A stretch of 64,000 nt of DNA from Sphingomonadales bacterium (GTDB taxonomy: Bacteria; Pseudomonadota; Alphaproteobacteria; Sphingomonadales; Sphingomonadaceae), in assembly GCA_027483465.1 (NCBI GenBank), contig JAIXUQ010000111.1:1-64000 (forward strand). The letters are read 5' to 3'. Both the position numbers and the translations under genes were made by a program. Positions 13,733-37,608 of the stretch are shown piece by piece; the first letter of the stretch is position 1, and the number at the start of each line of letters is the position of its first letter. A model generated the notes under the pieces. The model was not told the DNA's origin, did no database searches, and was given only the letters and a program-made list of their open reading frames with translations.

Positions 13733-14359
13733 ATGACCATGCGGGCACGGATGATGATGGTGGCAAGTTTGCTGGCGATGCCGGCGATGGCGCAGCAGGC
13801 GCCGGCGGCCCAGCCTGCCCCTGCTCCTGCTCCTGCTCCTGCCCCTGCCCCGGCTCCTGCTGACTCCGGGAAACCCGCAGCCTATCAGGAAGGGGATGTG
13901 CTGAAGGCGGCCGAGGATGTGTTCGGCAAGGGCGCCGAAGGCCTGGCCGATATCGTCCGCAAGACCTTCAAGGACCGGGGCCAGCCCAATGCCTATATCG
14001 TGGGCAAGGAGGCCGGCGGCGCCTTCATCATCGGCCTGCGCTATGGTTCGGGGATGCTCTATCATAAGGTGGAGGGCGAACGGAAAGTCCATTGGACCGG
14101 GCCAAGCGTGGGCTTTGATATCGGCGGCGATGGCTCCAAGGTGTTCGCGCTGGTCTATAATCTCAATGACAGCGAGGAGCTGTATCGCCGTTATCCGGCG
14201 GCCGAGGGCAAGGCCTATGTCATCGGCGGTTTCACCGCCAATTATCTGCAGCGCGACAATGTGGTGATCGTGCCGATTAAGCTGGGTGTGGGCTGGCGGC
14301 TGGGTCTGAACGCCGGCTACATGAAGTTCACCAAGAAGGGCCGCATCCTGCCGTTCTGA
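13733..14359 (+). CDS. eipA: EipA/DUF1134 envelope protein
   Basis: A 208-residue protein with signal peptide, then an Ala-Pro repeat linker (about residues 27-43), then the DUF1134 core running from EGDVLKAAEDVFG to the end. Landmarks are GAEGLADIVRKTF, GEAYIVG-like PNAYIVGKEAGGAF and GPSVGFDIGGDGSK. EipA proteins of Brucella and Caulobacter act in the periplasm in cell-envelope integrity. The start is ATG at 13733 with AAAGGGA upstream; a second ATG lies two codons in. It appears monocistronic, followed convergently by a small membrane gene. Confidence 0.9.
   Translation: MTMRARMMMVASLLAMPAMAQQAPAAQPAPAPAPAPAPAPAPADSGKPAAYQEGDVLKAAEDVFGKGAEGLADIVRKTFKDRGQPNAYIVGKEAGGAFIIGLRYGSGMLYHKVEGERKVHWTGPSVGFDIGGDGSKVFALVYNLNDSEELYRRYPAAEGKAYVIGGFTANYLQRDNVVIVPIKLGVGWRLGLNAGYMKFTKKGRILPF
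13818..13860. repeat. CTCCTG / CCCCTG hexamer run
   Basis: Short near-perfect hexamers (CTCCTG, CCCCTG) encode the Ala-Pro linker of the EipA gene. In frame, so slippage would alter linker length without a frameshift when whole units change. Confidence 0.7.
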
Positions 14360-14363
14360 ACGT

Positions 14364-14648
14364 TCAGCGGAAAATCCCCACCGCCAGCTCGGCCCAGACC
14401 AGCAGCGCCGCTGCCATCACCAGCCACGCGCCGCGGCGGCGCCAGGCGCGGCGCGGCAGCCGGGCAGCGATTTCGAGGCCAAGGCCGGCCAGTCCGATCA
14501 GCGCGGCGGCAGCGACAAAATCGCCCGGCCCCCAATTCACCGCCGGGGTGACCAGCATGGCCAGCGCCGGCAGCATCAGGATGGCGGCGGCCAGGCGCCA
14601 GCCGGTGCGGCGGATGCGGGCGGCGGGCCATTTTTCCGGGCTGGTCAT
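14364..14648 (-). CDS. Small membrane protein, unknown
   Basis: A 94-residue protein with a basic N-terminus and about three hydrophobic segments (LAAAILMLPALAMLV, FVAAAALIGLAGLGLEI, WLVMAAALLVWAELAVG). No known family recognised. Its ATG overlaps the stop of the upstream dehydrogenase by ATGA, which supports the start and suggests a two-gene operon. It is convergent with eipA. Confidence 0.6.
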   Translation of the reverse strand: MTSPEKWPAARIRRTGWRLAAAILMLPALAMLVTPAVNWGPGDFVAAAALIGLAGLGLEIAARLPRRAWRRRGAWLVMAAALLVWAELAVGIFR

Positions 14649-26441: not shown

Positions 26442-26468
26442 TTGACGAAGGGAACGTTCTCATATAGC
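26442..26468 (+). promoter_or_regulatory. Putative promoter of the TonB receptor operon
   Basis: TTGACG (26442-26447) and TATAGC (26463-26468) are separated by 15 bases, slightly short for a sigma-70 promoter. The first GAACGTTC palindrome fills the spacer, so a bound repressor would block polymerase. Confidence 0.45.
26449..26462. promoter_or_regulatory. LacI-type operator O1
   Basis: AGGGAACGTTCTCA, a CG-centred palindrome around GAACGTTC as favoured by LacI-family repressors. It matches two other copies in this locus (26479 and 35145). Its centre is 30 bp from the next copy, about three helical turns. Confidence 0.7.
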
Positions 26469-26478
26469 CGTCAAGTCA

Positions 26479-26492
26479 GGAGAACGTTCACA
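26479..26492. promoter_or_regulatory. LacI-type operator O2
   Basis: GGAGAACGTTCACA, differing little from the copy before the GH3 gene (TGAGAACGTTCACA). It sits downstream of the putative -10 and about 40 bases before the receptor start. Confidence 0.7.
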
Positions 26493-26532
26493 GGCGCCGG
26501 GGAAGGCGCGGATGGGCGACCGGGGGAGTGAT

Positions 26533-29493
26533 ATGCTGATGATCAAGTCGTGCCGTCCGGCATTTGGCCGTTTCATGATGGGTGTCTCGGTGCTGGCGGT
26601 GAGCGCTGCGGCCACGCCAGTGCTGGCGCAGGAGCAACAGCAGGCAGCGGCGGCCGGCGATGCCGAGGAGCTGGTGGTCACCGGCATCCGCATCAGCTTG
26701 CAGAAATCGCTGGGCCTCAAGCGTGACGCGGTGGGCGTTGTCGATGCCATTTCCGCCGAGGATATCGGCAAGTTCCCCGACACCAACCTCGCCGAATCGC
26801 TGCAGCGCATCACCGGCGTTTCGATTGACCGGCAGGTGGGCGAAGGCTCGCGCGTGACGGTGCGTGGCTTTGGCCCGGATTTCAACCTGGTGCTGCTCAA
26901 TGGCCGCCAGATGCCGGCATCCGGGCTGGGTGATTGCTGCTCGGCGCCGGCCTCGCGCAGCTTTGATTTCGCCAACCTGGCCGCCGAAGGCGTTGCCGGG
27001 GTGGAGGTCTACAAGTCGGGCCGCGCCACGCTGCAAACCGGCGGCATCGGCTCGGTGATCAACATCAAGACGCCGCGCCCGCTCGATCGCCCCGGCTTCA
27101 ACGGCAGCATTTCGGCCAAGGGCATGATCGACCACACGTTCGAGGGCACCAATGTGACCCCGGAAGTGTCTGGCATCCTGAGCAAGACCTTCGCCGACGA
27201 GCGCATCGGCATCCTCGTCACCGGTGTCTACCAGCGCCGCAAGGCCAGCCTGGCCCAGTTCAGCGCCGGCTGGCGCGAGGGCTACCTGGGCAACGAGAAC
27301 AACTGGGGCTCGCTGGCCCCGGCGCCCAACCCGCAGATTACCAACCGGCCGGGGCCGACCGACATCTATCAGGTCACCCAGAATGCCGCCTATGATTTCA
27401 CCGATATCGACCGTGAACGCATCAACGGCCAGGTGGTGCTGCAGGTGAAGCCGAGCGACACGCTCAACCTGCTGATCGATTATACCTATTCCCAGTTCAC
27501 CCTGGACGCGCGCACCAGCAGCGTGGGCGTGTGGTTCAACCATGCCAACACCACCAGCAGCTGGACCAACGGCCCGGCGGCCGGGCCGCTTTTCTATGCC
27601 GAAGCCTTTGGCGCCGGTGAAGGCAAGGACCTGTCGTTCACCGGGGCGCTGGCGGCCAACCGCAACATCAACCGCAGCATCGGCGGCAATCTGAAGTGGG
27701 ATGGCCCCGGCGAGCTCCGGCTGGAGCTGGACGTCCATCACTCCACCGCCGAAAGCAAGCCGACCTCCCCGTTCGGCAGCAACAGCGCGGTGGGCAGCGC
27801 CATTTTTGGCGTGGCCAGCCAGCGTGCCGATTTCCAGACCGACATGCCGGCCATCAGCGTGACGATGAACCCCGGCGTGGCCATTGCTGCCAGCAATATC
27901 CGGCCGTCGGGTAACAGCTTCCGCAACGGCTACATGAAGGACACGATCAACGAGGCGTCGCTGCGCGGCGGCTATGATTTCCAGTCCGATCTGATCGAGA
28001 GCCTGGATTTCGGCGTCACCTTCACCGAAAACAAGGTGCGATCGGCCTTTGGCGTGATCCAGAACGACAGCTGGGGCGGCACGCTGACAGCGGCTGACAC
28101 GCCCGACAATTTCTACACGATCACGCCGGTGGCGTCGCGGCTGGCCGGCATGAACGGGTCGCAGAACCCGGCGATCATCGGCAATTATTTCCAGATCGAT
28201 ACCGCCGGCCTGGCTGATCTGTTGCAGCGCCGCATCGGCATCTGCAACGCGTCGACCGTGCCGGGCGCCTGCCTGGCCCGCTATGACACGGATCGCCGTA
28301 TCACCGAGCGGACCTGGGCGCCCTATCTGCAAACCCTGCACAAGTTCGATCTGGGCGGCGTGCGGGCCAATCTCCGGCTGGGCGTGCGCTATGAGAAGAC
28401 GCGCATCAGTTCCGCCGCGCTGGTGCCGGTGCCGACCGGCGTGGTGTGGGTGGCCGACAATGAAATGGGCCTGGTGCAGGGCGGTGCCGCCTCGTTCAAC
28501 ACGCTGCGCGGCGACTATGAAAACTGGCTGCCGGCGGTGGATTTCGACGTGTCGCCGATTTCCGACATCCGGCTGCGCGCGTCCTACAGCCACACCATCA
28601 CCCGCCCGGATTACACCAGCATGCAGGGCGGCATCACGGTGAACCAGCCGCTGCGGCCCAACGGCGGCAGCACCGCCAGCAGCGGCAACCCCGGTCTGTT
28701 GCCCTACAAGTCGAAGAATATCGATCTGTCGGCCGAATGGTATTACGGGCGCGACAGCTATGTGGCGGTGGGCTTCTTCCGCAAGGATGTCAGCAACTTC
28801 ATCGCCAACACCACGGTGCAGGGCCCGCTTTATGATCTGCCCAACCCGGCGCAGGGCGCAGCCGTGCAGGCGGCGCGCACGGCACTGGGCGGCAGCCCCG
28901 GCTTTGCCGCCATCCTGGCGCGGCTGGCCGCCACCAATCCATCGGTGGTGCAGTTCACCAATGGCGTCGCCAGCGGCGTGATCGGCCAGCCATCCGATCC
29001 GCGCGTGCAGTTCATCATCACCCAGCCGGGCAACAGCGCCCAGACCGCGAAGCTGCATGGCTTTGAATTTGCCGTGCAGCACAGCTTCTGGAACACCGGA
29101 TTCGGCACCATCCTCAACTACACGATCGTCAACAGCGACACCCGTTTTGACAACACGCTGCGCTATACCGCCACCCAGTTCGCGGTGAACGGCGTGTCCG
29201 ACAGTGCCAACGCCGTGCTTTATTACGACAAGAACGGCATCCAGGCGCGTGTGGCCTACAATTGGCGCGATGGCTTCCTGTCCAACTATGGCTTTGATCC
29301 CTTCTATGTCGAAGCCTATGGCCAGTTCGACGTGAGCGCCTCGTGGGAGTTCAAGAAGGGCCTGACCGCCTTTGTTGAAGGCATCAACATCACCAATGCC
29401 GATCGGCGCGGCCATATGCGCAACGCCAATGCGGCCTTCTTTGCCGCGCCCGGCTATGCCCGCTACACGGCCGGGGTGCGCTACAGCTTCTGA
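26533..29493 (+). CDS. TonB-dependent receptor of a carbohydrate locus
   Basis: A 986-residue outer-membrane receptor with signal peptide (ending near TPVLAQ), plug domain (EELVVTGIRISLQKSLGLKR, then DIGKFPDTNLAESLQRITGV) and beta-barrel ending in YTAGVRYSF. The KFPDTNLAESLQRI form is typical of receptors linked to plant-sugar loci in sphingomonads, Caulobacter and Xanthomonas. The ATG at 26533 is chosen because GGGGGAGTGAT precedes it. Two LacI-type palindromes lie upstream. It leads SapC, cupin, halogenase, LacI, MFS and GH3 genes on the same strand. The likely ligand is a beta-linked oligosaccharide, inferred from the GH3 enzyme. Confidence 0.94.
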   Translation: MLMIKSCRPAFGRFMMGVSVLAVSAAATPVLAQEQQQAAAAGDAEELVVTGIRISLQKSLGLKRDAVGVVDAISAEDIGKFPDTNLAESLQRITGVSIDRQVGEGSRVTVRGFGPDFNLVLLNGRQMPASGLGDCCSAPASRSFDFANLAAEGVAGVEVYKSGRATLQTGGIGSVINIKTPRPLDRPGFNGSISAKGMIDHTFEGTNVTPEVSGILSKTFADERIGILVTGVYQRRKASLAQFSAGWREGYLGNENNWGSLAPAPNPQITNRPGPTDIYQVTQNAAYDFTDIDRERINGQVVLQVKPSDTLNLLIDYTYSQFTLDARTSSVGVWFNHANTTSSWTNGPAAGPLFYAEAFGAGEGKDLSFTGALAANRNINRSIGGNLKWDGPGELRLELDVHHSTAESKPTSPFGSNSAVGSAIFGVASQRADFQTDMPAISVTMNPGVAIAASNIRPSGNSFRNGYMKDTINEASLRGGYDFQSDLIESLDFGVTFTENKVRSAFGVIQNDSWGGTLTAADTPDNFYTITPVASRLAGMNGSQNPAIIGNYFQIDTAGLADLLQRRIGICNASTVPGACLARYDTDRRITERTWAPYLQTLHKFDLGGVRANLRLGVRYEKTRISSAALVPVPTGVVWVADNEMGLVQGGAASFNTLRGDYENWLPAVDFDVSPISDIRLRASYSHTITRPDYTSMQGGITVNQPLRPNGGSTASSGNPGLLPYKSKNIDLSAEWYYGRDSYVAVGFFRKDVSNFIANTTVQGPLYDLPNPAQGAAVQAARTALGGSPGFAAILARLAATNPSVVQFTNGVASGVIGQPSDPRVQFIITQPGNSAQTAKLHGFEFAVQHSFWNTGFGTILNYTIVNSDTRFDNTLRYTATQFAVNGVSDSANAVLYYDKNGIQARVAYNWRDGFLSNYGFDPFYVEAYGQFDVSASWEFKKGLTAFVEGINITNADRRGHMRNANAAFFAAPGYARYTAGVRYSF

Positions 29494-29511
29494 CCGGGGA
29501 GGGCCGGCGGT

Positions 29512-29570
29512 GTGACAGGGGAGCCGGGCGCGCAGGCGTTGCGGCTCCCTTCCCGCTCTGCCACTGTCAC
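29512..29570 (+). promoter_or_regulatory. Nested intercistronic hairpin
   Basis: Between the receptor and SapC, GTGACAG (29512) pairs with CTGTCAC (29564) and, inside it, GGGAGCC (29519) with GGCTCCC (29543). There is no T-run. It could stabilise the receptor mRNA or lower read-through into the downstream genes. Confidence 0.4.
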
Positions 29571-29610
29571 GCAATCATGGCCCTTTGCCGCCTGAGGACC
29601 TGCCGAGACG

Positions 29611-30333
29611 ATGGCCAACCACCAGATCCTGAATTTCGATCAGCACGCCGGCGTGACAGTGAACACCGCAGCCGGCGCGGCGCTGGGCGATGCGGTGATG
29701 GCCTGCCTGGTGGTGCCGGCCGAGTTTCGCCGCCTGGCCAATGAGTATCCGATCCTGTTCCGGCGGGATGATGCCAGCGGCGCCTGGTCAGCCCTAGCGC
29801 TGTTCGGCTTTGAGCCGGGCGAAAATCTCTATCTGGCCGGGGATCGCTGGGATGCCCTGAGCCGGCCGCTGGCGATGGCCGTGCAGCCGTTTCTGGTTGG
29901 GCGCAGCGCCGATGACGCCGGGCCGGGCCAGGTGCATATCGACATGGACCACCCGCGCGTGGCGCACGGCGGTGACGGCGTCGCCCTGTTCGAGGCAGAC
30001 GGCCAGCCCACGGCGTTGGTGCGGCAGGTGGCCGACATGCTGGGCGCGCTGGACGATGCCTATCGCGCCAGCCCGGGCTTTTTCGCGGCGCTCACCCGCT
30101 ATGATCTCATCGAGCCCTTCTCGCTTGATGTCACGCTCGACAATGGCGCCATGCACCGGCTGGTTGGCTATCATCTGATCAACGAGGAGCGGCTGGCCGC
30201 GCTGGAACCGGGGGCATTGGCCGAACTGCACGGCGAGGGGCATCTGGAGCCCATCTACATGGCGCTGGCCTCGCTGGGCAATCTGGCCCGCCTGGTGCGT
30301 GCCAAGAACCGGTTGCAGCGCGGTGATGGCTGA
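29611..30333 (+). CDS. SapC family protein
   Basis: A 240-residue SapC-like protein, recognised by the N-terminal VPAEFRRLANEYPILFRRDDASG segment and the FGFEPGENLYL and later YDLIEPFSLDV segments. SapC was first named in Campylobacter S-layer work, but the role of these proteobacterial relatives is unknown. They recur beside TonB receptors, cupins and flavin halogenases. No signal peptide. Its 3' end overlaps the cupin gene start by eight bases. Confidence 0.88.
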   Translation: MANHQILNFDQHAGVTVNTAAGAALGDAVMACLVVPAEFRRLANEYPILFRRDDASGAWSALALFGFEPGENLYLAGDRWDALSRPLAMAVQPFLVGRSADDAGPGQVHIDMDHPRVAHGGDGVALFEADGQPTALVRQVADMLGALDDAYRASPGFFAALTRYDLIEPFSLDVTLDNGAMHRLVGYHLINEERLAALEPGALAELHGEGHLEPIYMALASLGNLARLVRAKNRLQRGDG

Positions 30334-31348
30334 GGCGCTGGCGTTTGCCCGGCTGCCGCGCGTGGCCGAGGTGGCAGTGCCGCCGGCCGCGCTCGCCGAT
30401 CATCTGGCTGGCGCCACCACCCCGTTCGTGATGCGCGGCATCGCCCGCGACTGGCCGCTGGTGCAGGCGGCCGGCCGCGGCGGCGCCGCCGTGCGCGCCC
30501 ATCTGGCCGCCTGTGCCCGCCCGCGCGCCTTTCCGGCCAGCATCGCGGCCGCGGCCGGTGAGGACCGGCTGTTCTATGATGCGGCGATGGCGATGAATTT
30601 CCGCATGGCCCAGGCCCCGCTGGCCGATTGGCTGGCAGCGATGGCGGCGGCCGAAGCCGATCCCGGCCAGCCCATGGTCTATCTTTCGGCCATCGACATG
30701 GGTGATTATTTCACCGGCCTGGCCGAAGCCCATGCCCTGCCGCTGGGCGAGCGCCAGCCGCTGGCCAGCATCTGGATCGGCACCCGCAGCTGCATCGCCG
30801 CCCACAATGACGTGCCAGAGAATATCGCCGTCTGCGCCGCCGGCCGCCGCCGCTTCACGCTGTTTCCGCCCGATCAATTCGCCAATCTCTATCTGGGCCC
30901 GCTGGACAACACGCCGGCGGGGCGCCAGGTTTCAATGGTGGATGTGCGCGCGCCCGATCTGGCCCGCCATCCGCGCTTTGCCGAGGCGCTGGCCAGCGCT
31001 CAGGTGGCCGAACTGGCGCCGGGTGATGCCATCTTCGTGCCGTCGCTGTGGTGGCATCATGTGGAAGGGCTCGATCCGTTCAACGTGCTGGTGAATTTCT
31101 GGTGGCGCGAGGTGCCGCGCTGGCTGGGCAATCCCGAAGATGCGCTGCTGCACGCCATATTGGCGGTGCGCGATCTGCCCGAAAGGCAGCGCCGGGCCTG
31201 GCAGGCGCTGTTTGATCACCATGTCTTTGCGCCCGCTGCGGCCGCGACGGCGCATCTGCCCGAAACGGCGCGTGGCATATTGGCCCCGCTCACCCCCGAT
31301 ACCGCCGGCCGCATCAAGGCCCGCTTGCTCAGAGGATTGTCACGATGA
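30326..31348 (+). CDS. Cupin-like (JmjC-fold) oxygenase
   Basis: A 340-residue cupin-like protein resembling JmjC/FIH-type hydroxylases. The iron site is visible as H-N-D in IAAHNDVPENIAVCAAGRRR, with a distal His in LWWHHVEGLDPFNVLVNFWW. It probably uses Fe(II) and 2-oxoglutarate, perhaps on a protein or peptide side chain. The start at 30326 overlaps SapC, and the stop overlaps the halogenase (ATGA), so the three are translationally coupled. The substrate is unknown. Confidence 0.87.
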   Translation: MAEALAFARLPRVAEVAVPPAALADHLAGATTPFVMRGIARDWPLVQAAGRGGAAVRAHLAACARPRAFPASIAAAAGEDRLFYDAAMAMNFRMAQAPLADWLAAMAAAEADPGQPMVYLSAIDMGDYFTGLAEAHALPLGERQPLASIWIGTRSCIAAHNDVPENIAVCAAGRRRFTLFPPDQFANLYLGPLDNTPAGRQVSMVDVRAPDLARHPRFAEALASAQVAELAPGDAIFVPSLWWHHVEGLDPFNVLVNFWWREVPRWLGNPEDALLHAILAVRDLPERQRRAWQALFDHHVFAPAAAATAHLPETARGILAPLTPDTAGRIKARLLRGLSR

Positions 31349-32856
31349 ACCAGGCACAGGCCCCGTTGCGGGTGGTGGTGTCCGGGGGCGGCACCGCCGG
31401 CTGGATGGCAGCGGCGGCGCTGGCCCACACGCTGGGCCCGGTCATCGATCTCACGCTGGTGGAATCCGATGCGATCGGCACCATAGGGGTGGGCGAAAGC
31501 ACCATTCCGCCGATGCAGTTGTTCAACCGCCTGCTCGGCATTGCCGAAGCCGATTTCATGCGCGCCACCCAGGCCACGTTCAAACTGGGCATCATGTTCG
31601 AGAATTGGCGTGACATTGGCCATCGCTATTTCCACAGCTTTGGCACCACCGGGCGCGATCACTGGTCAGCCGGTTTCCAGCATTTCTGGGCGCATGGGCA
31701 AACCCAGGGGCACCATCATCCCTATGATGATTATGCGTTGGAACTGCAGGCGGCACTGCAATCGAAATTCGCCCATCTGCCCGATGAGCGCATGAACTAT
31801 GCCTATCAGCTCGACAGCGCGCTCTATGCCCGTTTCCTGCGCCAGCGGGCCGAGACCGGCGGCGCCCGGCGCATCGAGGGCCGCATCGCCCGCGTGGAGC
31901 TGGACGGCGAGACCGGCGACATCGCCGCGCTGCGGCTGGATGGGGACCGCCGCATCGCCGGCGATCTGTTCATCGATTGCACCGGCTTTCGCGCCCTGTT
32001 GATCGAAGGTGCGCTGCACGCCGGCTTTGACGACTGGTCGCACTGGCTGCCTTGCGACAGCGCCATCGCGATCCAGACCAGCAGCGTGCGCCCCGCCGTG
32101 CCCTATACCCGCGCCATCGCCCATGATGCCGGCTGGCAGTGGCGCATCCCGCTGCAGCACCGCCAGGGCAATGGCATCGTCTATTGCAGCCGCTACCTGA
32201 GCCAGGAGGCCGCGCAGGACCGGCTGTTCGCCACCATCGAGGGCGACCGCCTGGTGAAGCCCAACATCATCAAATTTCAGACCGGCGTGCGCCGCCGGCA
32301 ATGGCACCGCAATTGCGTGGCGGTGGGCCTTTCGGGCGGGTTCATGGAACCGCTGGAATCCACCTCCATCCACCTCATCCAGCGCGCGGTGCTGCGCATC
32401 TGCCGCATGCTGCCGGCCGGCCGGATCAGCCCGCGCGACCGGGACGAGTTCAATGATCAGCAGTTCACCGACATGGAGCAGATCCGCGATTTCCTGGTGC
32501 TGCACTACAAGGTGACGGAACGGCGCGACAGCCCGTTCTGGCGCCATGTCGCCAGCATGGCCATCCCGGAAAGCCTGGCGCACAAGATCGAATTGTTCCG
32601 GGAAACCGGCCGGGTGTTCCGCAAGAACGAGGAATTGTTTGTCGAGAACAGCTGGGTGCAGGTGATGATGGGGCAGGGGATCACCCCGCTCAGCTGGCAC
32701 CCGGTGGCCGCCAAGCTGCGCCCCGAGGAACTCACCGCCTTCCTGACCGGCCTCAGGGACAATGTCGCCCGCACGGTTGCCGGCCTGCCCGATCATCATG
32801 CCTATGTCGCGCGCTATTGCGGGGCGGGGCTGCCGCATGACAACAAGGCGGCATGA
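31345..32856 (+). CDS. Flavin-dependent tryptophan halogenase family protein
   Basis: A 503-residue flavoprotein. The FAD motif GGGTAGW is near residue 14, GVGESTIPP at 48, the lysine matching the PrnA catalytic Lys at K80 (TFKLGIMFENW), the halogenase-specific WQWRIP at 264-269, and EPLEST (E338/S339) matching the active-site Glu/Ser. All key residues are therefore present, so it could be active. No flavin reductase gene is adjacent. In this TonB/SapC/cupin context the physiological substrate has not been established; modification of a peptide or receptor is speculative. Start overlaps the cupin stop (ATGA). Confidence 0.9.
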   Translation: MNQAQAPLRVVVSGGGTAGWMAAAALAHTLGPVIDLTLVESDAIGTIGVGESTIPPMQLFNRLLGIAEADFMRATQATFKLGIMFENWRDIGHRYFHSFGTTGRDHWSAGFQHFWAHGQTQGHHHPYDDYALELQAALQSKFAHLPDERMNYAYQLDSALYARFLRQRAETGGARRIEGRIARVELDGETGDIAALRLDGDRRIAGDLFIDCTGFRALLIEGALHAGFDDWSHWLPCDSAIAIQTSSVRPAVPYTRAIAHDAGWQWRIPLQHRQGNGIVYCSRYLSQEAAQDRLFATIEGDRLVKPNIIKFQTGVRRRQWHRNCVAVGLSGGFMEPLESTSIHLIQRAVLRICRMLPAGRISPRDRDEFNDQQFTDMEQIRDFLVLHYKVTERRDSPFWRHVASMAIPESLAHKIELFRETGRVFRKNEELFVENSWVQVMMGQGITPLSWHPVAAKLRPEELTAFLTGLRDNVARTVAGLPDHHAYVARYCGAGLPHDNKAA

Positions 32857-32888
32857 TGCGGGGCGACAGGCAGGGACGATAGGGCGGC

Positions 32889-33938
32889 ATGGCCAGGCGC
32901 AGGCAGGCGGTGACGATCCGGCACGTGGCGGCCGCGGCCGGCGTGTCGCTGCAAACCGTGAGCCGGGTGATCAACAACGAAGCCAGCGTGCGCCCGGAAA
33001 CCAAGCAGCGCGTGCAGGCGGCCATCGACCGGCTCGGCTATGTGCCCTCCATCGCCGCCCAGCGGATGAGCGGCTCGCGATCCTACCTGATCCTGGCGGT
33101 GAACGACCGGGATCGCACCATCGCCGATTGGCAGGCGCGTCAGGGCACCGATTGGGTGGACCAGATGCTGCTGGGCGGCATGCTGAAATGCGCCGAACAT
33201 GGCTATCGCATGATCTTCGAGCTGGTGGACACGCACAGCGACCATGTCGAACGCGAACTGGGCGCCGCCATTGCCGCGCTGCAGCCCGATGGCATCATCC
33301 TCACCCCGCCGCACAGCGACAACCGGCAGATCGTTGATTTCCTGTGCGAACAGGCCGTGCCCTTCGTGCGCATCGGCTCGCGCCGGCAGGATTCCGGCAT
33401 CGCGGTGTCGATGGACGATGAAGGCTCGGCCCACGCCGCCACCCGCCATCTGATCGCCCATGGCCATGCCCGGATCGGCTTCATCGCCGGCCCGCCCGAT
33501 TATGAACTGAGCGGCTGGCGCGTGGACGGCTGGCGTGCCGCGATGGCCGCGGCCGGGCTTGACACCACTGGCCTGCTGGCGGCCGGGGATTTCTCCCACG
33601 CCTCCGGCCGGGCGGCGGCGCTGCGCCTGCTCGATCCGCCCGACCGGCCCACCGCGATCATCGCCAGCAACGACCAGATGGCGATCGCCACGCTGGAGGT
33701 GGCGCGCGAATTGGGGCTGGCGGTGCCCGATGACCTGTCGCTGATCAGTTTCGACAACACGCCCATCGTGCAATTCGCCCGGCCGCCACTCACCGCCATC
33801 GATCAATCCATCGCGGCCACGGTGGCGCTGGCGGTGGACCTGATCATCGCCAGCCTGAAGGGCGATGCCGCGCCCGCAGCGCTGCCCGTGGTGCCATCCA
33901 CGCTGATCGAGCGCGCCTCCGTTGCCCGGCGTGGCTGA
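32889..33938 (+). CDS. LacI-family transcriptional regulator
   Basis: A 349-residue repressor. The N-terminal helix-turn-helix is TIRHVAAAAGVSLQTVSRVI with the hinge helix SIAAQRMSG, then a periplasmic-binding-protein-like sugar domain (for example IIASNDQMAIATLEVARELG). It probably binds the GAACGTTC palindromes before the TonB receptor and the GH3 gene and releases them when the sugar is present. It overlaps the MFS gene downstream by eight bases if GTG 33931 is used. Confidence 0.93.
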   Translation: MARRRQAVTIRHVAAAAGVSLQTVSRVINNEASVRPETKQRVQAAIDRLGYVPSIAAQRMSGSRSYLILAVNDRDRTIADWQARQGTDWVDQMLLGGMLKCAEHGYRMIFELVDTHSDHVERELGAAIAALQPDGIILTPPHSDNRQIVDFLCEQAVPFVRIGSRRQDSGIAVSMDDEGSAHAATRHLIAHGHARIGFIAGPPDYELSGWRVDGWRAAMAAAGLDTTGLLAAGDFSHASGRAAALRLLDPPDRPTAIIASNDQMAIATLEVARELGLAVPDDLSLISFDNTPIVQFARPPLTAIDQSIAATVALAVDLIIASLKGDAAPAALPVVPSTLIERASVARRG

Positions 33939-35103
33939 GGCGGCACAAACCGCTGCCGCCGGTCGCCTGCCGGGCTTCCTGGCCGTCTATGCGCTGGCCT
34001 GGACGGGGGTTGCCATCGCCTACATGCCGTTTCTCACCCTGCTGCTGCCGGTGCGGGTGGCGGTGCTGGCCGGCCCTGACCAGGCGGTGGGCTGGGTGGC
34101 ACAGCTCAGCTTTGCCGGAGCGCTGGCGGCCAGCGCCGGCCATCTGCTGTTCGGCTGGCTCAGCGATGTCAGCGGTGTGCGGCGGCCGTGGATCTGGGCC
34201 GGCCTGGCGCTCAGTTCCGCACTGCTGCTGCGGGTGCCGGCGGCCACCACGCTGGCGATGCTGGTGGCGATGATCATTGCCTGGCAGTTGGCGCTCAATC
34301 TGATGCTGGCCCCGCTGGCGGCGCTGGCCGGCGATGTCGTGCCTGATGCCCGCAAGGGCCTCTTGGGCGGCCTCATGGCGCTGGCACCGGGCTGTGGCGC
34401 GCTGGCCGGCACGCTGGTCACCTGGCCGGGGCTGGCCGGCCCGGATGGGCGGCTGGCGCTGGTGGTGGCGCTGGTGCTGCTGTGCCTGCTGCCGCTGTTG
34501 CTGGTGCCGTTGCCGCCCCGGCTGGTGCCGGCCCCGGCCGATGCCGCGCCGCCGCCGCCGGGGCGCACCCGCCGCATGTGGCTGGCCCGGCTGGCGGTGC
34601 AGATTGCCGAAGCCACCTTGTTCGCCTATCTCTATTTCTGGTTCCGCTCGGTCGATCCGGCGATGACCGACAATCGCGTCGCCGGGCTGTTTGCCGTGCT
34701 GCTGCTGCTTTCGGCCCCGCTGGCGCTGCTGGCTGGCCGCTGGTCGGATCGGCGCGGCGCGCCCTTCCTGCCGTTGCAACTGGCGGCGCTGGCCTCGGCG
34801 GCCGGGCTGGGCCTGATGGCGCTGGCCGGCGGCCTTGGCTTCGCCATGGCCGGCTTTGCGCTGTTCGTGCTCGCTTCGGCCAGTTTCCTTGCCCTGCACG
34901 CGGCGCAAACCCTGCGCGTGCTCAGCCGGCCGGATCGGCGCGGGCGCGATCTGGGGCTGTTCAACCTCACCAACACCATCCCCTCGCTGATCATGCCCTG
35001 GCTCACGCTCGGGATGGTGCCGCGCTTTGGCTATGCCGGCCTGTTCCTGCTGCTCGCCCTGCTCAGCCTGGCCGGCGCCGCGCTGCTCACCTCCCGCCGC
35101 TGA
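33931..35103 (+). CDS. MFS sugar transporter
   Basis: A 390-residue, 12-helix inner-membrane porter. GWLSDVSGVRRPWIWAGL is the helix 2-3 loop motif, and a second half motif AGRWSDRRGAPFLP is present. The chosen GTG start overlaps the LacI stop (GTGGCTGA); a TTG at 33922 is the alternative. Its place between the LacI regulator and the GH3 enzyme suggests it moves the sugar or short oligosaccharide released in the periplasm. It is shorter than the SLC45-like porter at 8.5 kb. Confidence 0.85.
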   Translation: MAEAAQTAAAGRLPGFLAVYALAWTGVAIAYMPFLTLLLPVRVAVLAGPDQAVGWVAQLSFAGALAASAGHLLFGWLSDVSGVRRPWIWAGLALSSALLLRVPAATTLAMLVAMIIAWQLALNLMLAPLAALAGDVVPDARKGLLGGLMALAPGCGALAGTLVTWPGLAGPDGRLALVVALVLLCLLPLLLVPLPPRLVPAPADAAPPPPGRTRRMWLARLAVQIAEATLFAYLYFWFRSVDPAMTDNRVAGLFAVLLLLSAPLALLAGRWSDRRGAPFLPLQLAALASAAGLGLMALAGGLGFAMAGFALFVLASASFLALHAAQTLRVLSRPDRRGRDLGLFNLTNTIPSLIMPWLTLGMVPRFGYAGLFLLLALLSLAGAALLTSRR

Positions 35104-35144
35104 GAACAGACGCTTGATTTCGCCGACGCGCCATGCAAAGAATT

Positions 35145-35158
35145 TGAGAACGTTCACA
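35145..35158. promoter_or_regulatory. LacI-type operator O3 before the GH3 gene
   Basis: TGAGAACGTTCACA, nearly identical to O2 at 26479. It lies 45 bases before the GH3 start and just after the MFS stop, suggesting the GH3 gene has its own LacI-controlled promoter. Confidence 0.7.
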
Positions 35159-35202
35159 ATAGCGTGCGGCTGCGGGGATGCAGCCAGGGGCGGGAGACGA
35201 GC

Positions 35203-37608
35203 ATGCGCAAGGCAGCCTGGGCGGCCACAATGATGCTGCTGGCCACAGCGGCCGGGGCGCAGCCGGCCGAACCGGCGCAGGATCCGCAGCGCTGGCCAGC
35301 CACCGCCAGCCCGCCCGCCTTCATCGATGCGGCCAGCGAGGCCCGCATCAGCGCACTGATCGCCCGCATGAGCCTGCGCGAGAAGATCGGCCAGATGATC
35401 CAGGCCGATATCACCGCCATCAGCCCGGCCCAGCTCAAGCGCTACCCGCTCGGCTCCATTCTCGCCGGCGGCAATGGCGGGCCCTATGGCAATGAACGCG
35501 CCGATGCCGCCAGCTGGGCCCGGCTGGTGGGGGAATTCCGCACCGCCTCGCAGAAAACCGGCGCCGGCATCCCGATCCTCTTCGGCGTGGATGCCGTGCA
35601 CGGCCACAGCAATCTGCCGGGGGCCACCATCTTCCCGCACAATATCGGGCTGGGCGCGGCCAATGATCCCGATCTGATCCAGCGCATCGGCGTGGTGACG
35701 GCGGCCGAGCTTTCCGGCAGCGGCATTGATTGGACCTTCGCGCCCACCCTGGCGGTGCCGCAGGATCTGCGCTGGGGCCGCAGTTACGAAGGCTTTTCCG
35801 CCGATCCGGCGCTGGTGGCGCGCTATGCCCGGGCGCTCACCCTGGGCCTGCAGGGCCCGCTCAGCGGCGGCACCATCCTGCCGGCCGACAAGGTCGCCGC
35901 CACCGCCAAGCATTTCGTCGCCGATGGCGGCACGCTGGATGGCAAGGACCAGGGCGATGCCGCCCTTGGCGAGGCCGAGCTGGTCGCCCGCCACGGTCTG
36001 GGCTATCCGGCGGCGATCGAAACCGGCGTGCTGGCGGTGATGGCCAGCTTCTCCAGCTGGAATGGCGTCAAGGCGCATGGCAACCGCTATCTTCTCACCG
36101 ATGTGCTCAAGGGCCGGATGGGCTTTGCCGGGTTGGTGGTGGGCGATTGGAACGGCCATGGCCAGTTGCCGGGCTGCACCCCCACCGATTGCCCGCTCAC
36201 CTTCAACGCCGGCCTTGATCTCGCCATGGCGCCCGACAGTTGGAAGGGCCTGTTTGACAGCACGTTGCGCCATGCCCGCAACGGCACCATCCCGATGGCG
36301 CGGGTGGACGATGCGGTGCGCCGCATCCTCAGGGTGAAGGCGCGGCTGGGCCTGCTGGATGCGCCGCCGCTGCTGCGCGCCGATCCAGCCCGCATCGGCA
36401 CGCCCGCGCATCTTGCCGTGGCCCGCGAGGCTGTGGCCAAATCCCTGGTATTGCTGAAAAACAATGGCGCCGTGCTGCCGATCCGGCCGGGTGCGCGGGT
36501 GCTGATCACCGGCCCTGGGGCCGACGATATGGCGATGCAGAGCGGCGGCTGGACGGTGACCTGGCAGGGCACCGACACCAAGGCCGCCGATTTCCCCAAG
36601 GGCCAGACCATCGGCCGCGCCCTGGCCGATGCCGTGCGCGCCGCCGGCGGGGAAGCGGTGATCGCCAGCGATGGCCGCACCGCCGCGCCGGCCGATGTGG
36701 CGGTGGTGGTGTTTGGCGAACAGCCCTATGCCGAGTTCCAGGGCGATGTGCCCGATCTGGCGTTCCGCACCCTCTCGGGCGAGATGGACCTGATCGCTGG
36801 CTTGAAGGCGCGCGGGCTCAAGGTGGTCTCGGTGTTCCTGTCGGGCCGGCCGATGTTCGTGTCGCCGCTGATCAATGCCTCCGATGCCTTTGTGGCGGCG
36901 TGGCTGCCGGGTTCCCAGGGCGAAGGCGTGGCCGATGTGCTGGTGGCCGGCCGCGATGGCCGGTCGCCGCGCGATTTCACCGGGCGGCTGCCCTTCGCCT
37001 GGCCGGCCGATGCCCGCTCGCCGATCACCGCGCCGCTGTGGCCGGTGGGCCATGGCCTCAGCTATGCCAGCGCGACCACGCTGGGCCCGCTGCCCGAAGC
37101 GCCGGGCGTGGACCTGGCGGCCACCGCCAGCGAGGATGCCTATCTGGTGCGCGGCAAGGTCATGGCCCCCTGGCGGCTGGGGCTGGACAGTGCCATCACC
37201 ATGAAATCAGTGGATATTTCGGCCCAGGAAGATGCCCGTCAGTTCCGCTGGGCCGATGCCGGCGCCATGGCCATCGATGGCCCCCCGGTGGGCCTGGCCC
37301 GCCATGCCACCGGCGGTTTTGCCCTCACCCTCGAATGGCGGGTGGATGCCCCGCCCGCCGGGCCGGTCACCTTGGCGATGGCCGGCGGCACGCTCGATAT
37401 CACGGCCGCGGCCAGGGCGGCGGTGCCCGGCCAGCTTGGCCTGCTGGAGGTGAATCTGGCCTGTTTTGCCCAGGCCGGGGCCGATCTGGCCAAGGTGGGC
37501 ACGCCGTTCCGGCTGGCCGGGCCCAAGGGCCTTGGTCTCACCCTGCGCACGATCCGGTTGGCCCAGCCGGCGCGAATGCCGCCGTGCCCGGCCGCCGTCG
37601 CCCGCTAG
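35203..37608 (+). CDS. Secreted GH3 beta-glucosidase / exo-beta-glucanase
   Basis: An 801-residue glycoside hydrolase family 3 enzyme with signal peptide (cleavage near AAGAQ). The first domain opens with RMSLREKIGQMIQADI; the nucleophile is D315 in LVVGDWNGHGQ. The second domain carries LVLLKNNGAVLPI, and the C-terminal part has an added beta-rich domain as in exo-1,3/1,4-beta-glucanases. It probably removes glucose from beta-glucans or cellodextrins in the periplasm. ATG at 35203 is preceded by GGGAGACGAGC. LacI-type operator O3 lies upstream. Confidence 0.93.
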   Translation: MRKAAWAATMMLLATAAGAQPAEPAQDPQRWPATASPPAFIDAASEARISALIARMSLREKIGQMIQADITAISPAQLKRYPLGSILAGGNGGPYGNERADAASWARLVGEFRTASQKTGAGIPILFGVDAVHGHSNLPGATIFPHNIGLGAANDPDLIQRIGVVTAAELSGSGIDWTFAPTLAVPQDLRWGRSYEGFSADPALVARYARALTLGLQGPLSGGTILPADKVAATAKHFVADGGTLDGKDQGDAALGEAELVARHGLGYPAAIETGVLAVMASFSSWNGVKAHGNRYLLTDVLKGRMGFAGLVVGDWNGHGQLPGCTPTDCPLTFNAGLDLAMAPDSWKGLFDSTLRHARNGTIPMARVDDAVRRILRVKARLGLLDAPPLLRADPARIGTPAHLAVAREAVAKSLVLLKNNGAVLPIRPGARVLITGPGADDMAMQSGGWTVTWQGTDTKAADFPKGQTIGRALADAVRAAGGEAVIASDGRTAAPADVAVVVFGEQPYAEFQGDVPDLAFRTLSGEMDLIAGLKARGLKVVSVFLSGRPMFVSPLINASDAFVAAWLPGSQGEGVADVLVAGRDGRSPRDFTGRLPFAWPADARSPITAPLWPVGHGLSYASATTLGPLPEAPGVDLAATASEDAYLVRGKVMAPWRLGLDSAITMKSVDISAQEDARQFRWADAGAMAIDGPPVGLARHATGGFALTLEWRVDAPPAGPVTLAMAGGTLDITAAARAAVPGQLGLLEVNLACFAQAGADLAKVGTPFRLAGPKGLGLTLRTIRLAQPARMPPCPAAVAR

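Follow-up and report, generated by a model that had tools for sequence, protein, structure and literature searches.

A conserved cassette of TonB-dependent receptor, SapC, cupin and flavin halogenase genes and its possible role in tailoring the receptor

Introduction

A 64,000-nucleotide stretch of contig JAIXUQ010000111.1 from a Sphingomonadales bacterium (hereafter the window; part of a draft genome of 3.58 Mb in 118 contigs) carries genes for SapC, a cupin and a flavin halogenase beside a TonB-dependent receptor (TBDT), which raises the question of what these three proteins act on. The initial annotation had placed them between the receptor and a LacI-MFS-GH3 group, and hmmscan of the window proteins confirmed the families and the order at 26442-37608: TBDT, SapC, Cupin_8/JmjC protein, flavin halogenase, LacI, MFS and GH3, all seven intact. 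Our analysis revealed that the first four genes form a conserved cassette in three bacterial classes, and suggests that the cassette may tailor its own receptor before export, a reading held tentatively, at somewhat under an even chance. The genes of the cassette are:

26512..29493, + strand: TonB-dependent receptor (P0001); TIGR01782, 600.5 bits against a cut-off of 310; plug PF07715 and barrel PF00593
29611..30333, + strand: SapC; PF07277, 1.6e-60, 204.9 bits against a cut-off of 28.9
30326..31348, + strand: Cupin_8/JmjC-type putative 2-oxoglutarate hydroxylase; PF13621, 2.7e-59; HxD...H intact
31345..32856, + strand: Hal2, Xcc4156-like flavin halogenase (P0004); PF04820, 1.5e-182; K80 and E338 intact

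The coupling by overlapping ends and the intact active sites described in the initial annotation were both found. The cupin ATG at 30326 lies within the SapC gene (end 30333), the halogenase ATG at 31345 overlaps the cupin stop at 31348, and K80, WQWRIP and E338 of the halogenase and H169, D171 and H253 of the cupin are all present. Judging from the alignment, the most likely cupin start is ATG 30326, the aligned M10. Inspection by eye revealed no evident signal peptide in SapC, cupin or halogenase, so the three proteins are probably cytoplasmic.

Conservation of the cassette

The cupin alignment (A1) yielded at least 588 confirmed matches, and the loci of the best 80 (L100-L179), a sample weighted towards near relatives, were analyzed with gene calls from a custom codon-usage caller. 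They come from sphingomonads, Hyphomonadaceae and relatives, Caulobacter, Asticcacaulis, Xanthomonas, Stenotrophomonas, Lysobacter, Pseudoxanthomonas, Massilia, Duganella and Porticoccaceae, and the arrangement TBDT-(Hal1)-SapC-cupin-Hal2, in which Hal1 is a halogenase between receptor and SapC, was found in alpha-, beta- and gammaproteobacteria. The cupin was called in 79 of the 80 loci, where the same-strand run holds a TBDT in 74/79, SapC in 74/79 and a halogenase in 73/79; the full order TBDT-Hal1-SapC-cupin-Hal2 occurs in 50 of the 79 loci and TBDT-SapC-cupin-Hal2 in 17. This grouping is far beyond chance, and the set is a conserved cassette.

Because the 80 loci had been chosen by their cupin, a reverse search was performed with a receptor model (A3) in 149 genomes of the family. 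In these genome searches the best 10 or best 5 candidates were scored per genome, which makes the matches per genome lower bounds and may have missed some receptors of the clade. Thirty receptors were obtained from 28 genomes, each above 1000 bits, and an A1 cupin lies within 3.0 kb of 29 of them. Co-occurrence with one receptor subfamily, which the initial annotation had put forward as a check, is therefore not at chance level. At least two SapC genes were detected in all 28 genomes with a receptor of the clade, compared with 10 of the 121 other genomes. The lone receptor without a cupin, a clade II member of genome G105 (L234:8101-11286), has no adjoining cupin, SapC or halogenase and retains the tryptophan W521 discussed below.

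The receptor tree unites all 86 receptors that SapC follows (type II) in one clade, along with four cassette variants. Two other arrangements were recognized. In type I loci, a related receptor clade is accompanied by one to three halogenases and often a cupin, with no SapC beside that receptor. In type III loci (L220-L227), which were picked because SapC and cupin matches adjoined, TBDT-Hal is divergent from SapC-cupin in 8/8, with two genes between the halves in L226.

Halogenases and cupin of the cassette

P0004 has the motifs of a flavin-dependent halogenase, namely GGGTAG14 (GxGxxG), K80, WQWRIP at 264-269 (WxWxIP) and E338. Halogenases of free tryptophan (PrnA/RebH type) are described in the relevant part of PMC8269204 as having a loop that closes over the tryptophan, with a motif of the YYHG...YS kind; the YHG motif of this type is absent from P0004. 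Its best match in the PDB is 6Y1W (Xcc4156, 620.9 bits). The cassette enzyme of Xanthomonas arboricola (L151) matches 6Y1W with 1025 bits and P0004 with 55% identity, so by sequence Xcc4156 is very probably Hal2 of the Xanthomonas cassette. Alignment of P0004 with a short-loop Xanthomonas relative showed no gap in the substrate-loop regions, and the substrate site of Hal2 is probably open, as in Xcc4156 and BrvH. The passages of PMC7336383 that concern Xcc4156 report an open substrate site without closing loops and no halogenation of free tryptophan, propose larger substrates, possibly peptides, and describe the native substrate as unknown for BrvH and for the enzymes of Xanthomonas; the corresponding part of PMC5945002 gives a similar picture for BrvH. 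PDB entries 9LUQ and 9LTB are close to Hal2 and Hal1, respectively.

Retention of the catalytic residues in relatives, a further check named in the initial annotation, was assessed by a simple pattern match. Among halogenases of more than 430 aa that lie at most three genes from SapC, 148/153 retain both the K and the E motif (a few duplicate loci included, among them L069 with L100), which argues that catalysis is under selection.

The window lacks Hal1, and its closest relative, Sandarakinorhabdus cyanobacteriorum (L100), has it. The end of the window receptor and the start of SapC match the L100 sequences that flank the Hal1-bearing 1.56 kb:

29569..29610, no strand: Hal1 absence site, window compared with L100; flanks align with L100 2416-2589 and 4146 onward

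Since 54 of the 79 sampled loci have Hal1, its deletion in the window lineage is likelier than its gain in L100. The receptor gene of S. cyanobacteriorum itself (L069 / L100:104-2515) is broken by one in-frame TAG, and the downstream operon genes are open.

The iron site of the cupin (H169/D171/H253, numbered from GTG 30299) is invariant in 19/19 aligned cupins. At position +15 from the first His, the place of the 2-oxoglutarate-binding basic residue, there is an invariant Arg184, not the Lys that we take to bind 2-oxoglutarate at the equivalent place in FIH. Profile matches are to FIH (6.1e-29), JMJD5 and JMJD7 first, and also to C2orf60, presumably TYW5. FIH, JMJD5, JMJD7 and TYW5 are hydroxylases of protein side chains or tRNA. 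The putative hydroxylase of the window is thus like FIH, JMJD5 and JMJD7 in profile match and HxD...H iron site, but differs from them in being bacterial, operon-borne and equipped with Arg184 in place of Lys.

Two side observations concern other halogenase genes. The genome of the window has two more, at L024:7111-8634 (contig C12) and L025:17427-17810 (contig C57), one near Na/H exchanger and SSF genes and one truncated by a contig end beside an alpha-amylase gene; no receptor of the window type stands beside either. In 18 of the 20 type I loci L080-L099 (L080-L096 and L098), and in L077, there is a halogenase-like gene without the PLEST/PLEAS motif (for example L087:4371-5819 and L096:12125-13597; the L092 copy is cut by the locus end, and the L083 and L088 copies come from a later profile and are perhaps something else). 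Those of these genes that are part of the halogenase alignment also lack the catalytic Lys, and by sequence the gene looks like a pseudo-enzyme partner.

SapC and its paralogues

The predicted model of SapC is of high confidence (pLDDT 96.2). No solved SapC structure was found, and the fold search gave no usable relative (best E 0.099, TM <0.25). At least one SapC occurs in 148 of the 149 related genomes. Apparently core copies in L026 and L215 follow an FAD-linked oxidase, and the one in L219 looks different.

In 18 genomes with extra copies, each listed in full, nine copies are neither apparently core nor beside a cupin, and eight of these nine belong to a gene group that also encodes a giant surface exoprotein or the partner that secretes it. 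The group holds a DUF3739 filamentous haemagglutinin in L212, L213, L229 and L230 (with an OmpH, Skp-like, gene after SapC in L212 and L213), TPS/ShlB in L228, L232 and L233 (in L233 ShlB was the part scanned) and a YDG-repeat protein in L079 (the one SapC copy of that genome that was examined); the ninth copy, L231, has no surface-exoprotein group. From the paralogues in surface-protein gene groups we infer that SapC serves exported surface proteins as an adaptor or chaperone, and that in the cassette the protein served would be the receptor.

Two tryptophans of the receptor

WG occurs exactly twice in the window receptor, as ENNWG and as NDSWG, both of the form [N/D]-x-W-G:

27304..27306, + strand: codon for W265 of the receptor (ENNWGSL), a candidate site associated with Hal1
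28072..28074, + strand: codon for W521 of the receptor (NDSWGG), a candidate site associated with Hal2

Both residues begin large loops in the receptor model (pLDDT 83.4), and strand alternation predicts these loops to be extracellular. W521 is present in 86/86 type II receptors (L108 with L195 and L077 with L078 being kept as duplicates), in 26/30 type I receptors and in 2/33 unlinked receptors. Of all columns whose conservation reaches 90% in type II and 75% in type I, it is the one seen least often in unlinked receptors. Among receptors fetched once W521 had attracted attention, it occurs in 8/8 of type III and in 5/5 further members of clade II (the duplicate L236 uncounted). W265 is found in 50/56 receptors whose gene is separated from SapC by a halogenase gene, compared with 8/33 where no halogenase gene stands in between. 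The W265 column is Tyr in Xanthomonas receptors lacking Hal1, and the site is lost in the halogenase-less loci L108, L145 and L188.

The pattern [ND].?WG occurs in 80/85 type II, 22/28 type I and 4/33 unlinked receptors, and the number of WG per Trp is 0.146 in type II, 0.140 in type I, 0.059 in unlinked and 0.020 in type III receptors (0.076 in other proteins). In the W265 table and the Trp-composition, W521-tree and motif counts the rows L069, L195 and L236 were left out, in the W521-tree and motif counts also L105_10, L106_10, L142_14 and L099_11, and in the W265 tree test and the W265/Hal1 count the truncated receptors L117 and L143. When correlated change was scored on the receptor tree, support for the two sites reached roughly the 97-98th percentile, which is modest. 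Taken together, the receptor tryptophans are suggestive of modification sites, not proof.

Two other lines were given up. Linked receptors are enriched in Trp (1.40% vs 1.14%, p 1e-4), but the signal was dropped as unspecific, because Asn and Gly differ more strongly between linked and unlinked receptors. Clade-specific residues were considered as modification sites, and most of them merely mark the clade.

A possible route of receptor modification

These data are consistent with the following route. In the presence of the sugar, LacI would leave the operators described below and release transcription, and the receptor precursor would be made in the cytoplasm. SapC, as the putative adaptor or chaperone for exported surface proteins, would keep this precursor unfolded. 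The cupin would hydroxylate a receptor side chain, and the open-site halogenases would act on loop tryptophans, Hal1 at W265 and Hal2 at W521. The receptor would then be exported, with altered aromatic residues in ligand-binding loops predicted to lie at the cell surface, where they may affect ligand binding. The window copy would stand as a case in which W265 is kept though Hal1 is gone. In this full form, a dedicated system that both hydroxylates and halogenates the Trp-loops of the TonB-dependent receptor encoded with it, ahead of export and with the help of SapC as a general surface-protein adaptor, is somewhat less likely than not.

Several observations weigh against modification of the receptor. 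Support for it is indirect, with no modified residue seen, and enzymes that act on a secreted protein ahead of its export would be out of the ordinary. The [ND].?WG pattern was chosen post hoc, after looking at the sequences, and is found in 0/8 type III receptors; the control pattern [ND].?YG, too, is more frequent in linked receptors (56/85 type II, 24/28 type I and 11/33 unlinked). In type I receptors a Gly follows the column-521 Trp in only 7/26 and an NWG stands three columns before column 521 in 18/28, so the site homology of this Trp with W521 is uncertain. The tree score of W265 is 18.5, exceeded by Y755 and by 4/230 null columns (230 of 1,509 eligible column-residue pairs were used), and that of W521 is 13.5, exceeded by 4/146 (146 of 163 eligible other columns). 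W521 is kept without an adjacent halogenase in L108, L145, L188 and L238, and in the cassette-less L234, and a Trp stands at 521 in the unlinked receptors L185 and L191, whose genomes have no PF04820 match. Hal1 and W265 are also uncoupled in both directions: Hal1 is present and W265 absent in L153, L163, L165, L170, L173 and L178, and W265 is present and Hal1 absent in the window and in L104, L119, L132, L138, L139, L140 and L142.

Regulation and genomic context

Downstream of the cassette lie three genes, and palindromes centred on GAACGTTC stand before the receptor (two) and before GH3 (one):

32889..33938, + strand: LacI-family regulator (hmmscan)
33922..35103, + strand: MFS transporter (hmmscan)
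35203..37608, + strand: GH3 beta-glucosidase-like enzyme (domains GH3, GH3_C and Exop_C)
26449..26462, no strand: LacI operator 1 before the receptor, AGGGAACGTTCTCA; GAACGTTC at 26452
26479..26492, no strand: LacI operator 2 before the receptor, GGAGAACGTTCACA; GAACGTTC at 26482
35145..35158, no strand: LacI operator before GH3, TGAGAACGTTCACA; GAACGTTC at 35148

The start of GH3 is most likely ATG 35203 rather than GTG 35164. In the window GAACGTTC occurs four times, with 0.31 expected; the fourth copy (14358-14365) overlaps a TGA that apparently ends another gene and was treated as chance. AACGTT, often as TGnGAACGTTCnCA, stands 5' of the receptor in 47 of 49 cassettes with a downstream LacI gene (L188 and L236 among them are one locus counted twice), compared with 31 of 611 other genes of L100-L147. 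Control of both the receptor cassette and GH3 by LacI is therefore well supported at the sequence level. Because GH3 has an Exop_C domain and a GH16 gene is present in the related Hyphomonad locus L136, the inducer is probably a beta-glucan or beta-glucoside.

Genes on either strand within seven genes of the cupin were then counted, some contigs being short. Among 49 sphingomonad loci, LacI was found in 44, MFS in 39 and GH3 in 35; among 30 non-sphingomonad loci, LacI was found in 10, GH3 in 8 and MFS in 0, and none of the three in 18. The LacI-MFS-GH3 setting is thus mainly sphingomonad: outside this group LacI or GH3 recurs in the 30 loci sampled, but the full set does not. The LacI-controlled beta-glucan locus proposed in the initial annotation would suit the gene content of the window and of many sphingomonads but is not a general setting.

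This context bears on an alternative in which the target of the enzymes, for tailoring or detoxification, is an imported ligand, for example an indolic or phenolic aglycone released from a glycoside: receptor and MFS would import it, GH3 would free it, and cupin and halogenase would act on it in the cytoplasm. The operators that receptor and GH3 have in common in LacI-linked cassettes, the frequency of the three genes in sphingomonads and the probable cytoplasmic location of the three proteins all agree with it, and relatives are reported to brominate free indoles in the parts of PMC5945002 and PMC7336383 that treat activity. However, at the non-sphingomonad cassettes an MFS of this family is absent from all 30 (other transporter families lay outside the search), and more than half of these cassettes have none of the three genes. 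Tailoring of a ligand also gives no role to SapC or to its paralogues among secreted surface proteins, and the activity of BrvH on indole is given as low in the same part of PMC5945002. We consider this alternative unlikely, though it deserves to be kept in mind. The cassette stays while neighbouring catabolic genes change, and what is constant beside it is the receptor rather than any single sugar pathway; adjacency is not function.

Improbable, for its part, is a reading in which the essential work, folding or hydroxylation of the receptor, falls to SapC and the cupin, and the halogenase is an accessory oxygenase or a rarely used one. SapC-cupin pairs do persist without an adjacent halogenase in L108/L195, L145, L188 and L238, and in type III loci they stand as divergent units of their own, but the near-complete retention of the K and E motifs in halogenases near SapC implies selection for catalysis, and type I loci keep their one to three halogenases with both motifs and no SapC. 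Least probable is a free halo-indole signal or antimicrobial made by the halogenase, linked to the receptor through shared regulation only: the related BrvH brominates free indole in vitro, as stated in part of PMC5945002, but the gene order is fixed with one receptor clade across three classes, and no NRPS/PKS was found among the Pfam-scanned neighbours, no dedicated search for biosynthetic clusters having been made.

Relation to known systems

All parts of the cassette belong to known families; halogenases of this kind have already been purified, and structures of several related enzymes are solved. Xcc4156 (6Y1W) and BrvH (6FRL) share with Hal2 the family and the catalytic K and E, and the substrate-loop alignment of Hal2 with its Xanthomonas counterpart is gapless, but the window enzyme sits in a receptor operon, and the words 'TonB' and 'receptor' are absent from the main text of the two structure papers. 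MibH and other halogenases of peptide tryptophans resemble Hal2, as proposed here, in having an open site and a Trp within a peptide as target, according to the section of PMC5945002 on these enzymes, but Xcc4156 is only 26% identical to MibH in the comparison given in PMC7336383. No small precursor peptide was noticed at the window locus, where no search was aimed at such peptides.

Carbohydrate-utilisation loci with TonB-dependent receptors are named CUT loci. Like them, the cassette in many sphingomonads is combined with receptor, LacI, transporter, glycosidase and shared operators, and the window has all four gene kinds, with operators, as read from the DNA, before TBDT and GH3; unlike them, the SapC-cupin-halogenase cassette is also found without LacI, MFS and GH3.

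No paper with both 'tryptophan halogenase' and 'SapC', and no published description of the cassette, was found in the literature searched, which leaves most subscription journals outside. PMC11337851, which has 'halogenase' and 'TonB-dependent receptor' in its text, PMC4911050 and PMC6680617 are unrelated, judging from the portions that carry the search terms. The receptor cassette that is fixed in three classes, the link between SapC and exported surface proteins, and the named tryptophans of the receptor appear to be new, and are not claimed as unpublished. The receptor operon offers the Xcc4156-type halogenases a concrete candidate substrate, with two named residues and with gene losses that occurred in nature. 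If the receptor is indeed tailored, these orphan enzymes would gain a native substrate, and a new kind of outer-membrane protein modification would help to explain SapC.

Other genes near the cassette

Pfam scans of selected neighbours revealed further genes. Dipeptidyl peptidase IV is encoded near the cassette in Xanthomonas L151 and Pseudoxanthomonas L162. Amidohydrolase and alginate-export genes are neighbours in Caulobacter L172, a transketolase-like protein in Porticoccaceae L165, an RHS protein in Duganella L177 and cyanophycin synthetase in Allosphingosinicella L108, and genes for GH43, alpha-galactosidase and GH3 occur in the vicinity of type III loci. In Massilia, a ShlB-type secretion gene and then an unscanned frame of 2120 aa follow downstream of Hal2 (L156:12928-21026). 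A GGDEF diguanylate cyclase gene stands directly downstream of the cassette in two distant lineages (L063:11695-12825 and L161:11138-12733). In Xanthomonas, a gene for a TonB protein lies 3' of the cassette (L151:12773-13786), as if the receptor came with its own energiser.

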